Both the position numbers and the translations under genes were made by a program. Shown one piece after another: positions 43,578 through 47,735 of a stretch of 47,735 nucleotides of DNA. Origin of the DNA: Natrialba hulunbeirensis JCM 10989 (GTDB lineage: Archaea; Halobacteriota; Halobacteria; Halobacteriales; Natrialbaceae). How positions within the stretch are numbered: position 1 is the first letter of the stretch; each line of letters opens with the position of its first letter. Below the pieces are notes generated by a model. The model ran no database searches, had not been told where the DNA came from, and saw only the letters and a list, made by a program, of their open reading frames with translations. The DNA lies in contig NZ_AOIM01000042.1 in NCBI RefSeq assembly GCF_000337575.1, positions 60,505 to 108,239 of the forward strand, read 5' to 3'.

Positions 43578-43710
43578 TGGCTGGTCGAGCACGGGGTCAC
43601 GATGGCGACAGCCGACCCCTGCCGCCACAGTGGGTCGGTACGTCAGTGCGTCACAGGCGCCACTACGCGAAAAAGCAACCCTTAAAACTCGCGCACGGGT
43701 TGTGACGGGT

Positions 43711-44184
43711 ATGGCTGGAACCATCGAAGTGCTCGTTCCGGGTGGCCAGGCCAACCCTGGCCCACCGCTCGGTCCCGAGCTCGGACCGACCCCCGTCGAC
43801 GTGCAGGCGGTCGTACAGCAGATCAACGATCAGACGGAAGCCTTCGACGGCACGGAAGTGCCCGTCACCGTCGACTACGACGACGACGGCTCGTTCGAAA
43901 TCGACGTCGGTGTCCCACCGACGGCGGCGCTCGTCAAGGACGAGGCTGGCTTCGAGACCGGCAGCGGCGAGCCCCAGGAGGACTTCGTCGCTGACCTCTC
44001 CGTCGAACAGGTCAAGACGATCGCAGAGCAGAAACACCCCGACCTGCTCGCCTACGATACGAAGAACGCCGCAAAGGAAGTCGTCGGCACCTGCGCCTCG
44101 ATGGGCGTCACCATCGAAGGCGACGATGCCCGCGAGTTCAAGCAGAAGGTCGACGACGGCGAGTACGACGACACACTCGCATAA
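43711..44184 (+). CDS. rpl11: 50S ribosomal protein L11
   Basis: 157 residues, normal archaeal length. The start GTIEVLVPGGQANPGPPLGPELGP is the conserved rRNA/factor-binding Pro-Gly loop, and the C-terminal rRNA-binding domain ends with GTCASMGVTIEGDDAREF. It forms the GTPase-associated centre with 23S rRNA. A TATA-like ccttaaaac (about 43679-43688) lies 25 nt upstream. The L1-L10-L12 genes often found close are not in this window. Confidence 0.97.
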   Translation: MAGTIEVLVPGGQANPGPPLGPELGPTPVDVQAVVQQINDQTEAFDGTEVPVTVDYDDDGSFEIDVGVPPTAALVKDEAGFETGSGEPQEDFVADLSVEQVKTIAEQKHPDLLAYDTKNAAKEVVGTCASMGVTIEGDDAREFKQKVDDGEYDDTLA

Positions 44185-44452: not shown

Positions 44453-45559
44453 TCACAACCTCCTCACAACCGCCTTACGACGGGCAAGCACGTCCAGATT
44501 ATGCGCGACGAACTCGAGTACCCCGGACTCGAGTGCCGTCCGTCGCTGATCGAGCCACTGTTCCTGTTCGGCGGACGAAAACGGCATCCTCGTAGCGGGG
44601 ATTTCTGCGAGAGCGTCGTCGATAGTGTGCAGAACGTGTTCGAGGACGAGTTGTTCGGATGCTGGGTAGTGGGTAGTGGGGCTGTCGGGGCTGTTGGGGC
44701 TGTTGGGGCTGTTGGGGCTGTTGGGGCTGCCGGCCTCGTCGACCCCACTGTGATTCTCACATGCTGGGCGGACGACCCAGTTCGACCCGCCGGCAGCGAG
44801 CGTCTCCCAGTCCCGCCGGCGCAGTGCCGTCAGTAGCTCGCGACCCGCGCGACTGCTGCCGCCGTCCCGAACCTCGTCCATGTGGTAGTGATACCAGCGC
44901 TCTATATCACGGTCGAGCGGGTCTATCGGGACGAAACCGGTCCCGCCGTCGAAGGTGATCGGTGCGTAGAGCACGCCGTCCGGTTCGAGCAGTGTCTCGA
45001 TGGACTCGAGTACGGCCGACAGGTCGACGAGATCTAGAAAGGCGGCTGCGACGAGAGCATCAGCCTGTGCCTCGATTTCGAAGGCGTCGGCGACGGTGAA
45101 GGTGATAGTGAGGGTGGTAGTGGTGGTAGTAGTAGCAGTGGCAGAAGCGGGAACGGAGCCGGTCTCCTCGAGTAGCCCCGATGGCTTATCTCGCTCACGA
45201 CCATCGTCTCCAGCGAGTTCGTGTGTTGCGACGAGCGTAGCGGACTCGGTGTCTCGGTCATCACGCCAGCGGACAGTGTACCCCGCGTCCTCGAGTCCCT
45301 CGGGGACCAGATCGCGTGCGCGGGCGATGCTTGCCGCGTCGCGGTCGACGAGCCGGTAGCTGACGCGTTCGGGAAGGCGATCCCACGCTGCGAGCCGAAC
45401 GAGCATCGTTCCAACGCCGGCACCGAGTTCGACGATGCTGACCGGGCCGTCGCGGGCTGTGAGCGCGGCCTCGAACCGGTCGAGCACGCGACGGTTCAGC
45501 GCGCGGTCGTCGACGGTGCGCTTTGCGTCCAGATAGGTTTGCATCGACGGACCGGTCAC
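44453..45559 (-). CDS. SAM-dependent class I methyltransferase
   Basis: 368 residues. The SAM motif I is clear (VELGAGVGTMLVRLA, about 42-56), followed by LVDRDAASIARARDL. Two low-complexity inserts interrupt an otherwise plain fold: a Thr-rich run (TATTTTTTTLTI) and SPN repeats (44678-44731). Late segments (FLDLVDLSAVLESIETLLEPDGV, LYAPITFDGG) match the motif-post-I region. The GTG at 45559 overlaps the glycosyltransferase stop (GTGA), favouring it over the ATG at 45544. It is the last gene of a cluster with a glycosyltransferase and a pterin-type enzyme, and could methylate their product. Confidence 0.85.
   Translation of the reverse strand: MTGPSMQTYLDAKRTVDDRALNRRVLDRFEAALTARDGPVSIVELGAGVGTMLVRLAAWDRLPERVSYRLVDRDAASIARARDLVPEGLEDAGYTVRWRDDRDTESATLVATHELAGDDGRERDKPSGLLEETGSVPASATATTTTTTTLTITFTVADAFEIEAQADALVAAAFLDLVDLSAVLESIETLLEPDGVLYAPITFDGGTGFVPIDPLDRDIERWYHYHMDEVRDGGSSRAGRELLTALRRRDWETLAAGGSNWVVRPACENHSGVDEAGSPNSPNSPNSPNSPDSPTTHYPASEQLVLEHVLHTIDDALAEIPATRMPFSSAEQEQWLDQRRTALESGVLEFVAHNLDVLARRKAVVRRL
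44678..44731 (-). repeat. 9-bp tandem repeat coding Ser-Pro-Asn
   Basis: Six units of ggggctgtt on the plus strand (four perfect, the first and last varied) code an SPN/SPD run in the methyltransferase. Units of 9 nt keep the frame, so copy-number change would lengthen or shorten the linker only. Confidence 0.85.
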
Positions 45560-46656
45560 GGCTGCTCACCACCCGCAGACGAGCACGACTCGTGGCCGTC
45601 CGAGTCGGAGAGTTCGACCAGAAACGCTCGCAGCTCCTCGAACGTCGTCTCCCAGGATGGATGCGCCTCGGCCGTCTCGAGTGCAGCCGTCGCGAGCGAA
45701 GCCAGCCGCTCGCGATCCCGTGCGAGATCGGTGACGATAGTTGCGATCCGCTCGGGATCGTCCGGATCGACGACGAAGCCGGTAGTGCCGTCCGCGACGA
45801 GCTCGCTCGCGCCACCAACACCGCTCGCGAGCGGGACGACGCCAAACTCCATTGCTTCCAGATACACCATCCCGAAGCTCTCGTAGTGAGATGGGACAGC
45901 GAGCGCGTGCGAGCGCGCGAGGACGGACTCGAGTACGTCGTCCGTGACAGGGCCGTAGAACGAGACGCGGTGGGCGATCCCCGAGGTACTGCTTTGTTCG
46001 CGGATCTGCCGGGTGTAGTCGGGTTCGGCCGCGTCGTCGCCGACGATGGTCAGCGTCCAGTCGACGTCGCGGTCGACTCGTGTGAGTGCCTCGAGCAGCG
46101 TCTCGATGTTTTTGCGCGGAATGACGTTCCCGACGAAGACGAGCCGGAGCGGCCCCGTGTCCGCTCGCTGGCCGATATCGTCGGGTGTCAGTGCCGGTGT
46201 CGGTTGCCGGCCGGCCGGCGGTGCGACGTGCGTCGGGAGGTCGTCAGTGACGAGTGTGGACACCTGCTCGCGTGTGAACTCGCTGGTGCAGACCGCTGCG
46301 TCGACCGACTCGAGATAGCGTCGCTCGTGCTCGCGACCGGTGTGAGTCACGGTGGTACTCGAGTCGTCCGCAGTTTCTCGTCCCGCTATGGGACCAACAT
46401 GTTCGAGAAGGTGGACGAGCGCAACGATGGTCTCGGGCTCCTCAAGCGTGGCGTTGCGATCAACCAGCGTCGGGGAGCAGAGTGTGTCCTGCAGGAGTAC
46501 GTCGAACGGACGATCCAGAGTGGGATCCTCGTCGGAGAGCGAGCAGACGGTAACGTCGTCACCGCGAGCGTCGAGAGCGGAGACGAGTTTGCGATCGTAC
46601 CGATACCCACCGGAGAGCTGGTCGAGGTCACCGGGAACGACGAGTCCAACGTGCAT
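45556..46656 (-). CDS. GT4-family glycosyltransferase
   Basis: 366 residues from the ATG at 46656 (MHVGLVVPG). The GT-B fold shows the N-lobe start, GGYRYDRKL (acceptor side), the nucleotide-sugar region LRLVFVGNVIPRKNIETLLEA, and the EX7E-type motif VPSHYESFGMVYLEAMEFGVV. It transfers a sugar from an activated donor. The start lies 11 nt after the PTPS-like stop, and the stop overlaps the methyltransferase start, so the three form an operon. The acceptor is unknown; a pterin or lipid is possible. Confidence 0.92.
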   Translation of the reverse strand: MHVGLVVPGDLDQLSGGYRYDRKLVSALDARGDDVTVCSLSDEDPTLDRPFDVLLQDTLCSPTLVDRNATLEEPETIVALVHLLEHVGPIAGRETADDSSTTVTHTGREHERRYLESVDAAVCTSEFTREQVSTLVTDDLPTHVAPPAGRQPTPALTPDDIGQRADTGPLRLVFVGNVIPRKNIETLLEALTRVDRDVDWTLTIVGDDAAEPDYTRQIREQSSTSGIAHRVSFYGPVTDDVLESVLARSHALAVPSHYESFGMVYLEAMEFGVVPLASGVGGASELVADGTTGFVVDPDDPERIATIVTDLARDRERLASLATAALETAEAHPSWETTFEELRAFLVELSDSDGHESCSSAGGEQP

Positions 46657-46667
46657 TGTCGATCGTC

Positions 46668-47048
46668 TCAAACCGTCCGTTCGTGTGCGACGCGCGCGAC
46701 TTCATCCTCCTGGACCACAATTCTGAGTTCGGAAACGGTCTCTGGAAGCGAGAGCGACTCGAGTAGCCGGTCGCCGAAGACGCGGGCGAATCGCTCGGCG
46801 CTTGGGTTTGCGTCCTCGAACGCGGGGAGGTCGTTGAGCGTCCGGTCGCTGTAGAACGCGGCGGTGCGGTCCATCGCGGCGACGAGGTCGTCGATGTCGA
46901 CGAGGTACTCGTGTGTGTCGAGTTCGGAGCCCCGCAGCGTTGCCTCGACGGTGAAGTGGTGCGAGTGAAGCTGGCCCTCCGGACCGGGGTCCGGTACTGT
47001 CAGGAAGTGCTGGGCGATCACCGATCGGGAGACCGAGACAGCGTACAT
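46668..47048 (-). CDS. 6-pyruvoyltetrahydropterin / 6-carboxytetrahydropterin synthase family (QueD)
   Basis: 126 residues from the ATG at 47048 (MYAVSVSRS). The PTPS fold shows the zinc-site His text HFLTVPD, then HSHHFTVEA (paired His ligands), the DIDDLVAAM strand and the C-terminal ELRIVVQEDE. QueD makes the queuosine/archaeosine precursor, and PTPS makes biopterin precursors; the genomic partners (glycosyltransferase, methyltransferase, dehydrogenase) suggest a modified pterin here. A TATA-like catatatta (about 47079-47087, minus strand) lies about 30 nt upstream. Confidence 0.9.
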   Translation of the reverse strand: MYAVSVSRSVIAQHFLTVPDPGPEGQLHSHHFTVEATLRGSELDTHEYLVDIDDLVAAMDRTAAFYSDRTLNDLPAFEDANPSAERFARVFGDRLLESLSLPETVSELRIVVQEDEVARVAHERTV

Positions 47049-47162
47049 AGCATGACCTATCACGAACGGTAATATATGTCCTTGCCCGAGTCGTATGCGG
47101 CTGCTCGATTAGTAACAGAGGGCACCGAACTCAGCCAGATAATTGCACGGGCGTGCCAGCTA

Positions 47163-47712
47163 TCACTCGTAGGTAAACAGCACCTGTACGACGTCGTCGG
47201 CACGCTCCTCGAGTAGCTCGTACGCCACGGCCGCGTCCTCGAGTGGAAACTCGTGCGTGAACAGCCGTTCGAGGTCGAGTCGGCGGAGCCACGACCAGGT
47301 GAGGTCGTGACGGCGCTCGCGCGACCAGCGCCCAGAGAGGCGAGGGTCGATAGTACTCACCTGGGAGCTTCGAATGTCGATCCGGTCGCGGTGAAACCGG
47401 CCGCCGAGATTCGCCGTGGCGGGTTTGGTCCCGTACCAGGAGCCGACGAGGAGGCGGCCGTCGAACCCCGTCACGGCGAGTGCGTCGTCGAGCGCGTCGG
47501 GGTTGCCCGAGAGTTCGTAGGTGAGGTCCGCCCGCGAATCCCCAGCCTCGAAGCCGCCGGCAGCGGCGCCCGCGAACGCCTCCTCGACCGCACACGCCGT
47601 CGGATCGAGCGTGCGATCCGCACCGAAGGCGCTCGAGTGTCGTCGACGGTCACCGTCGGGATCGAACGTCACCAGCGTCTCGATCGGTGTCCGGGCGAGC
47701 AGTGCCGTCGTC
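47163..47712 (-). CDS. Zinc-type alcohol dehydrogenase-like protein, C-terminal part (truncated)
   Basis: About 183 residues remain of a medium-chain dehydrogenase (MDR): a Rossmann segment (ALLARTPIETLVTFDPDGDR..SSAFGADRTLD), LTYELSGNPDALDDALAV, FDGRLLVGSWYG and the tail EFPLEDAAVAYELLEERADDVVQVLF. The catalytic zinc half is lost beyond the window. The apparent ATG (minus strand near 47729) lies in adapter sequence and is not a start. The gene would precede the pterin-type enzyme by 114 nt on the same strand and probably belongs to the cluster. Confidence 0.85.
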
Positions 47713-47735
47713 CTGGCTCTTATACACATCTCTGA
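47713..47735. other. Tn5/Nextera adapter at right contig end
   Basis: Positions 47713-47731 read ctggctcttatacacatct, the reverse complement of the Tn5 mosaic end with one mismatch at 47716. The outer bases mirror the left end. The natural sequence stops at about 47712. Confidence 0.93.

Follow-up and report, generated by a model that had tools for sequence, protein, structure and literature searches.

The genome of Natrialba hulunbeirensis JCM 10989 contains two genes for proteins of the 6-pyruvoyltetrahydropterin synthase (PTPS) fold. One of them directly adjoins queE (locus L001). The other lies in the stretch of DNA analysed here (47,735 nucleotides, positions 60,505 to 108,239 of NZ_AOIM01000042.1; hereafter the window), among genes for an MDR-superfamily dehydrogenase, a GT4 family glycosyltransferase and a methyltransferase. 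We found that this cluster is shared with bacteria, and that it probably diverts an early riboflavin intermediate into a glycosylated, methylated, perhaps membrane-anchored pterin-like molecule. An earlier annotation made from the letters of the window alone (the sequence-only reading) had picked out the same four genes, all on the minus strand, and they were found where it had placed them. The junctions it described are also present: 11 nt separate the PTPS stop from the GT4 ATG, the GT4 and methyltransferase genes overlap by GTGA, and inspection of the window sequence revealed a TATA-like element, ACATATATTA, about 26 nt ahead of the PTPS ATG.

47163..47712, minus strand: MDR-superfamily dehydrogenase, residues about 163-345 (PF00107, E 4e-7)
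46668..47048, minus strand: SCO6650-type PTPS-fold protein, 126 aa, signature GPExxxHSHxF (PF01242, 71 bits)
45556..46656, minus strand: GT4 family glycosyltransferase with an EX7E motif, ESFGMVYLE (PF00534, 119 bits)
44453..45559, minus strand: class I S-adenosylmethionine methyltransferase-like protein with a GAGVG motif (weak Pfam methyltransferase matches; conserved family)
47070..47077, minus strand: predicted TATA-like element ATATATTA, about 26 nt 5' of the PTPS ATG, at the spacing of a leaderless transcript

The PTPS start is the ATG at 47048, where homologues begin; they do not begin at the upstream GTG. The window PTPS has no genomic link to queC or queE, queE adjoining the other PTPS gene, and it scored 41.4 bits against the QueD model TIGR03367, below the cut-off of 89.25. 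Its role as the sole QueD of the genome was rejected because a separate queD lies beside queE; the window protein is not the archaeosine QueD. The best match in the PDB was SCO6650 from Streptomyces (3d7j; phmmer E 9e-9). The same protein was the nearest fold to the predicted structure (pLDDT 96.6; TM 0.90), followed by E. coli QueD. All nearest folds are pterin enzymes, and Plasmodium PTPS also matches. In one alignment, the identity of SCO6650 was 28-35% with the haloarchaeal paralogues and 17% with the window genome's own QueD. Streptomyces-sized genomes with a near-identical PTPS carry the same set of CDP-alcohol phosphatidyltransferase, MDR, PTPS, GT4 and methyltransferase genes, together with creatininase and RibA. 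With the closest sequence, the closest fold and a shared gene cluster, the window PTPS is a member of the SCO6650 family. SCO6650 itself is said, in work of Spoonamore from 2006 and 2008, to have shown no PTPS activity.

Alignment of 80 homologues indicated that H14, H30, Glu24 and Glu114 are invariant (80/80), with H28 present in 76; position 68 is Asp (or Glu) in 79. The loss of the zinc site reported for SCO6650 is not seen in haloarchaea: all three zinc-type histidines are found in every haloarchaeal member; H28 is replaced by Asn in 4 of the 43 bacterial ones. Position 24 corresponds to the catalytic Cys of QueD and is Glu in 80/80 homologues (GPEGxLHSH), and the dyad His of QueD is absent from the subfamily. 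The window PTPS shares the T-fold, the three zinc-type histidines and a C-terminal Glu with QueD/PTPS-I, but differs from it by the Glu in place of the catalytic Cys, the lack of the dyad His, a low identity to the genome's own QueD and a different operon. Similarly to PTPS-III (the FolB bypass; Plasmodium PTPS E37), which it also matches in fold, it has a Glu rather than a Cys near HxH. Unlike in PTPS-III, however, the Glu stands at the Cys position, giving ExxxHSH instead of ExxHGH, and assignment as a PTPS-III folate enzyme was rejected by this motif. The ExxxHSH motif matches none of the published signatures, which are CxxxHGH for PTPS-I, CxxxxxHGH for PTPS-II and ExxHGH for PTPS-III (PMC5041015).

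The core of MDR, PTPS, GT4 and methyltransferase genes is kept in haloarchaea, Chloroflexota, delta- and gammaproteobacteria and Actinomycetota. The gene directly upstream of PTPS is MDR in 28 of 35 bacterial loci and 22 of 34 haloarchaeal ones; directly downstream it is GT4 in 27/39 and 23/35, respectively. Gene order is conserved well above chance. Within the family, 21 loci including that of the window were compared: GT4 was detected in 20, the methyltransferase in 19, MDR in 18, a DUF7475-type protein in 15 and a CDP-alcohol phosphatidyltransferase in 12. Across an even sample of the class Halobacteria, this PTPS type occurred in 171 of 292 genomes, representing 54 of 77 genera. Scanning named genomes extended its distribution to Chloroflexota, metagenome-assembled genomes (MAGs) of Syntrophales and other deltaproteobacteria, a Solirubrobacterales MAG, the gammaproteobacteria Saccharospirillum, Pseudohongiella and Halomonadaceae, and many haloarchaeal families. 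PTPS genes resembling that of SCO6650 occur in six large actinobacterial genomes; the four whose neighbourhood was read have CDP-alcohol phosphatidyltransferase, MDR, PTPS, GT4, methyltransferase and RibA there. The overall actinobacterial tally (78/296) probably mixes true members with low-scoring ordinary QueD and was not used as a frequency. In a tree of concatenated MDR, PTPS and GT4 sequences, rooted at the midpoint with no outgroup, the 26 haloarchaeal loci formed one clade (support 1.0) next to Chloroflexota, which suggests that the haloarchaeal clusters stem from a single transfer. Two PTPS genes, L203 7631-8032 (the second copy of genome G092) and L199 7290-7727 (G185), look frame-shifted, reflecting either decay or sequencing error.

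The sequence-only reading had staked its proposal on this PTPS not being the only QueD of its genome and on the gene order being conserved in related species. With the archaeosine QueD elsewhere and the order conserved across archaea, and across bacteria too, it holds on both counts. The idea that the cluster is a novelty of haloarchaea was abandoned: bacterial phyla have it, and for its Streptomyces form a structure (SCO6650) has already been solved.

The bacterial loci pointed to the precursor of the pathway. Genes for GTP cyclohydrolase II (RibA) and a RibD_C reductase were found within 3.5 kb upstream of PTPS in 22 of the 29 bacterial loci with enough flank and in none of 31 haloarchaeal loci. 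These two proteins and the LPG-synthase-TM protein had merged in one single-linkage cluster (k4) through fusions and overlapping frames, and were separated with dedicated hidden Markov models; in several loci (L074, L102) RibA and RibD_C are indeed fused as one protein. No GTP cyclohydrolase I was recognised among the conserved cluster neighbours, RibA being there instead. A GTP cyclohydrolase or reductase gene joining the cluster, which the sequence-only reading had proposed to look for, is thus found in bacteria, as GTP cyclohydrolase II with RibD_C and not as GTP cyclohydrolase I, but in no haloarchaeal locus. Since these are the genes that join, the precursor is probably a riboflavin-type diaminopyrimidine and not dihydroneopterin triphosphate.

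Several features set the bacterial cluster apart from riboflavin biosynthesis. Its reductase carries no deaminase domain and scored higher against TIGR01508, the archaeal DARPP reductase model (131 bits), than against bacterial RibD (104 bits), both scores being below the cut-off. A complete RibD is encoded elsewhere in 6 of 12 bacterial genomes. In the four Chloroflexota genomes G307, G308, G313 and G314, neither lumazine synthase (RibH) nor a complete, bifunctional RibD was found. RibA and the reductase both lie within the cluster in G307, G308 and G314, where the cluster RibA is the only one of the genome; G313 has the reductase in the cluster locus and its only RibA on another contig. These four organisms apparently cannot make riboflavin and yet retain RibA and the reductase, which argues that the pair does not serve riboflavin there. 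Conversion of GTP to DARPP and then to 2,5-diamino-6-ribitylamino-4(3H)-pyrimidinone 5'-phosphate (DARIPP) by the cluster RibA and reductase is well supported by the family assignments.

In the Streptomyces-type cluster, RibA has a Met (RAMALQ) where other RibA proteins have a Tyr (RAYNLQ), and a creatininase accompanies it; the Tyr-type actinobacterial cluster L173 has RibD_C and no creatininase. The Met enzyme SCO6655, the RibA homologue of the SCO6650 gene cluster, reportedly stops at the formylamino-pyrimidine product (Spoonamore's work of 2006 and 2008 again). In archaea the formyl group is taken off by ArfB, which is homologous to creatininase. The Met-type RibA with creatininase would represent a third arrangement, which fits DARIPP supply. 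Unlike the Streptomyces clusters, those of haloarchaea have no RibA or reductase, and creatininase was not seen among their conserved neighbours. Archaea already make DARIPP for riboflavin, ArfA and ArfC being annotated in Haloferax (PMC8305020), and this explains the absence of precursor genes from the archaeal operons. ArfA and ArfC are both present in the window genome; the ArfA-ArfB-ArfC route would supply the proposed shared precursor only, from genes outside the operon.

The remaining enzymes of the cluster would act on this precursor or its products. The MDR protein belongs to a conserved family; its model and fold match threonine and polyol dehydrogenases. The GT4 protein is related to MshA/EpsE-type enzymes, its EX7E motif being found in 48 of 55 homologues; a "GPMC system" glycosyltransferase model was dismissed (35 bits, cut-off 400). 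On C43, a second contig of the same genome that carries the start of the MDR gene, a CDP-alcohol phosphatidyltransferase is encoded at 423-1244, on the same strand as the MDR start. Its motif, DxxDGxxAR...G...D...D, is intact in this copy and in 37/37 homologues, making a lipid or phospho-alcohol step likely in the pathway. This gene points to a lipid step beyond what the sequence-only reading could see in the window. Bacterial clusters also carry the LPG-synthase-TM flippase-like protein. The bacterial CDP-alcohol transferase at L056:3542-4717 is extended at its C-terminus by a region weakly similar to DoxD, the large subunit of thiosulfate:quinone oxidoreductase. In some genera, members of a protein family of roughly 280 aa that Pfam does not recognise are encoded between the DUF7475 and CDP-alcohol transferase genes (L044:11167-12015 and relatives).

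We therefore hypothesize that the four genes form the downstream end of a conserved operon whose pathway leaves riboflavin synthesis at an early stage and turns DARIPP into a glycosylated, methylated, membrane-anchored pterin, a proposal to which we give about an even chance. It is based on the gene order and its conservation, the separation from the archaeosine QueD, the contrast in precursor genes between bacteria and archaea, and the conserved active-site residues; the individual reactions beyond DARIPP and the nature of the product are inferred. Bacteria with the cluster would obtain DARIPP through the GTP cyclohydrolase II and the deaminase-less RibD_C encoded in it, and haloarchaea would rely on their standard riboflavin pathway (ArfA, ArfB, ArfC). 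The MDR enzyme would oxidise the ribityl 2'-hydroxyl to give a 1-deoxy-pentulose side chain, as GTP cyclohydrolase I forms by Amadori rearrangement. On chemical grounds, the ketone would then close on the 5-amino group to yield 7,8-dihydroneopterin 3'-phosphate, the monophosphate form of the closure product of the last GTP cyclohydrolase I intermediate. The PTPS-fold protein, with its zinc site and a Glu for the catalytic Cys, would trim or rearrange the side chain of the dihydroneopterin phosphate or of its open form. GT4 and the methyltransferase would add a sugar and a methyl group, respectively, and the CDP-alcohol phosphatidyltransferase would couple the polyol or polyol phosphate to CDP-archaeol or CDP-diacylglycerol, so that the final product is a glycosylated pterin anchored in the membrane. 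The sequence-only reading had the set make, reduce, glycosylate and methylate a pterin; its direction is retained here and its precursor route is not, given the GTP cyclohydrolase II and RibD_C of the bacterial clusters. A bolder version, in which haloarchaea and several bacterial phyla share a second, GTP cyclohydrolase I-free way to pterins, from DARIPP by C2' oxidation and closure to a glycosylated, methylated, lipid-joined and membrane-bound redox pterin, is tentative and somewhat doubtful.

Several observations weigh against this pathway. The SCO6650-type actinobacterial proteins lack one His of HSH as well as the Glu, and they are the only branch to miss both, archaeal and other bacterial members keeping the two; the chemistry of the PTPS-fold protein may thus differ between branches, or have been lost in that of SCO6650. 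In the MDR protein, the residues that normally bind the catalytic zinc are missing (SAGTE for CGTD and GYA for GHE), which weakens its assignment as an alcohol oxidase. The Streptomyces-type cluster L170 has no RibD_C reductase nearby. The four genomes lacking riboflavin genes are mostly fragmented MAGs, so the absence of those genes is not final. Making dihydroneopterin phosphate by this route also looks redundant where another GTP cyclohydrolase route serves folate. Not every step is always clustered: GT4 is missing from the haloarchaeal loci L111, L119, L126 and L200, where the methyltransferase directly follows PTPS (the genome of L200, G092, has a second cluster with GT4), and in L201, L073, L101 and L084 (Halonotius and relatives) PTPS has no MDR, methyltransferase or CDP-alcohol phosphatidyltransferase neighbours, the rest of the set being perhaps elsewhere or lost.

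The strongest competitor keeps the precursor and changes the product. The T-fold protein would directly bind the 2-amino-4-oxo-pyrimidine edge of DARIPP, the MDR enzyme would act as a reductase or at another position, and GT4, the methyltransferase and the CDP-alcohol transferase would decorate the ribityl chain, leaving a modified ribityl-diaminopyrimidine or another heterocycle. In T-fold enzymes, the Glu equivalent to Glu114 holds the 2-amino-4-oxo edge, which pterins and DARIPP have in common, and the invariance of Glu114 is compatible with such a product; the missing zinc ligands of MDR and the absence of the QueD-type Cys and dyad His also speak for it. However, the nearest folds are all pterin enzymes, and a 2'-oxidised DARIPP is expected on chemical grounds to close to a dihydropterin. 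We regard this outcome as possible, though clearly less probable than the pterin. In a further scenario, the ordinary pterin pathway (archaeal GTP cyclohydrolase MptA) feeds dihydroneopterin phosphate to the PTPS, which makes a hydroxymethyl- or carboxy-pterin that is then glycosylated and methylated, and RibA and RibD_C serve something else. Glycosylated pterins do exist in Sulfolobus, cyanobacteria and Chlorobium, and in the window a PTPS family member sits next to a glycosyltransferase and a methyltransferase, but supply by MptA is unlikely in view of the lack of a recognised GTP cyclohydrolase I among the conserved neighbours, the RibA and RibD_C genes in 22/29 bacterial loci, and their retention in the four genomes without lumazine synthase and full RibD.

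An operon for a polar lipid or surface glycan, in which the PTPS-fold and MDR proteins have been co-opted to act on some sugar or polyol with no relation to pterins, would account for the intact CDP-alcohol phosphatidyltransferase motif, the MshA/EpsE-related GT4 and the bacterial flippase-like protein; it leaves both the RibA and RibD_C of the bacterial clusters and the pairing of Met-type RibA with creatininase unexplained, and we consider it improbable. We give hardly any credence to a second QueD or folate PTPS-III with unrelated neighbours: the weak match to the QueD model (41 bits, cut-off 89) is set against the separate queD beside queE, the absence of the CxxxHGH, CxxxxxHGH and ExxHGH motifs, and the conservation of the operon.

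The pterin pathway from DARIPP has partial parallels in known systems. Haloarchaea contain the charged pterins sulfohalopterin and phosphohalopterin. The bacterial pteridine glycosyltransferases PgtA, BGluT and CtPGT transfer a sugar onto a pterin; the accessible parts of their descriptions mention no linkage to MDR, CDP-alcohol phosphatidyltransferase or RibA genes. That an archaeon makes a glycosylated neopterin is shown by solfapterin, the neopterin-3'-glucosamine of Sulfolobus (Lin and White 1988, cited in PMC3546692). None of the protein families of the cluster is new, and a structure is available for the Streptomyces version. The open-licence papers searched contained no account of the complete pathway, of its distribution or of the proposed precursor. 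If the proposal is correct, more than half of haloarchaea (171/292 sampled), various Chloroflexota, Streptomyces-type actinobacteria and marine gammaproteobacteria convert a riboflavin intermediate into a new molecule, for which the genes point to a membrane anchor. This would explain why a QueD-like paralogue has been kept, and why bacteria maintain a GTP cyclohydrolase II together with an archaeal-type reductase that do not serve riboflavin. One pathway would then be maintained in two domains with different precursor supplies, and its product might belong to a novel group of cofactors or pigments linked to lipid.

The MDR gene, described as truncated by the sequence-only reading, is indeed a fragment in the window, but the gene itself is not: the window terminus is the end of contig C42, the assembly breaks there at a sequencing adapter, and the start of MDR is on C43.

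47713..47735, minus strand: sequencing adapter at the contig end, TCAG plus Nextera mosaic end AGATGTGTATAAGAG[C]CAG (19-base match, one mismatch)

The adapter, which remains in the public assembly, explains the spurious start SEMCIRA; the ATG start of the MDR fragment was rejected as derived from it, and predicted proteins starting SEMCIR are artefacts. Positions 1-333 of C43 (G000:C43) encode MDR residues 1-111, 95% identical to a genus mate, and a gap of about 150 bp separates the pieces on the two contigs. The CDP-alcohol phosphatidyltransferase is followed on the same strand by a DUF7475 membrane protein (C43:1237-1593) and a 201-aa membrane protein (C43:1721-2326); the first two of these three proteins were identified by Pfam in the genus mate. 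The genes rpl1-rpl10-rpl12 come after the operon on C43. In Natrialbaceae, the operon sits reversed between rpl11 and rpl1-rpl10-rpl12 (window 43702-44184; L137, G000:C43 2560-4600), an arrangement that looks like an insertion into this ribosomal protein locus. A second RibD_C-family gene (G000:C43:15746-16270, 66 bits) lies about 14.5 kb from the operon and probably encodes another reductase.

The methyltransferase gene of the window genome is about 60 codons longer than in other genera, with low-complexity insertions found in this genus and the following repeat.

44677..44729, minus strand: 9-bp tandem repeat, nearly perfect, 5.9 copies, encoding SPNSPN, within the methyltransferase gene

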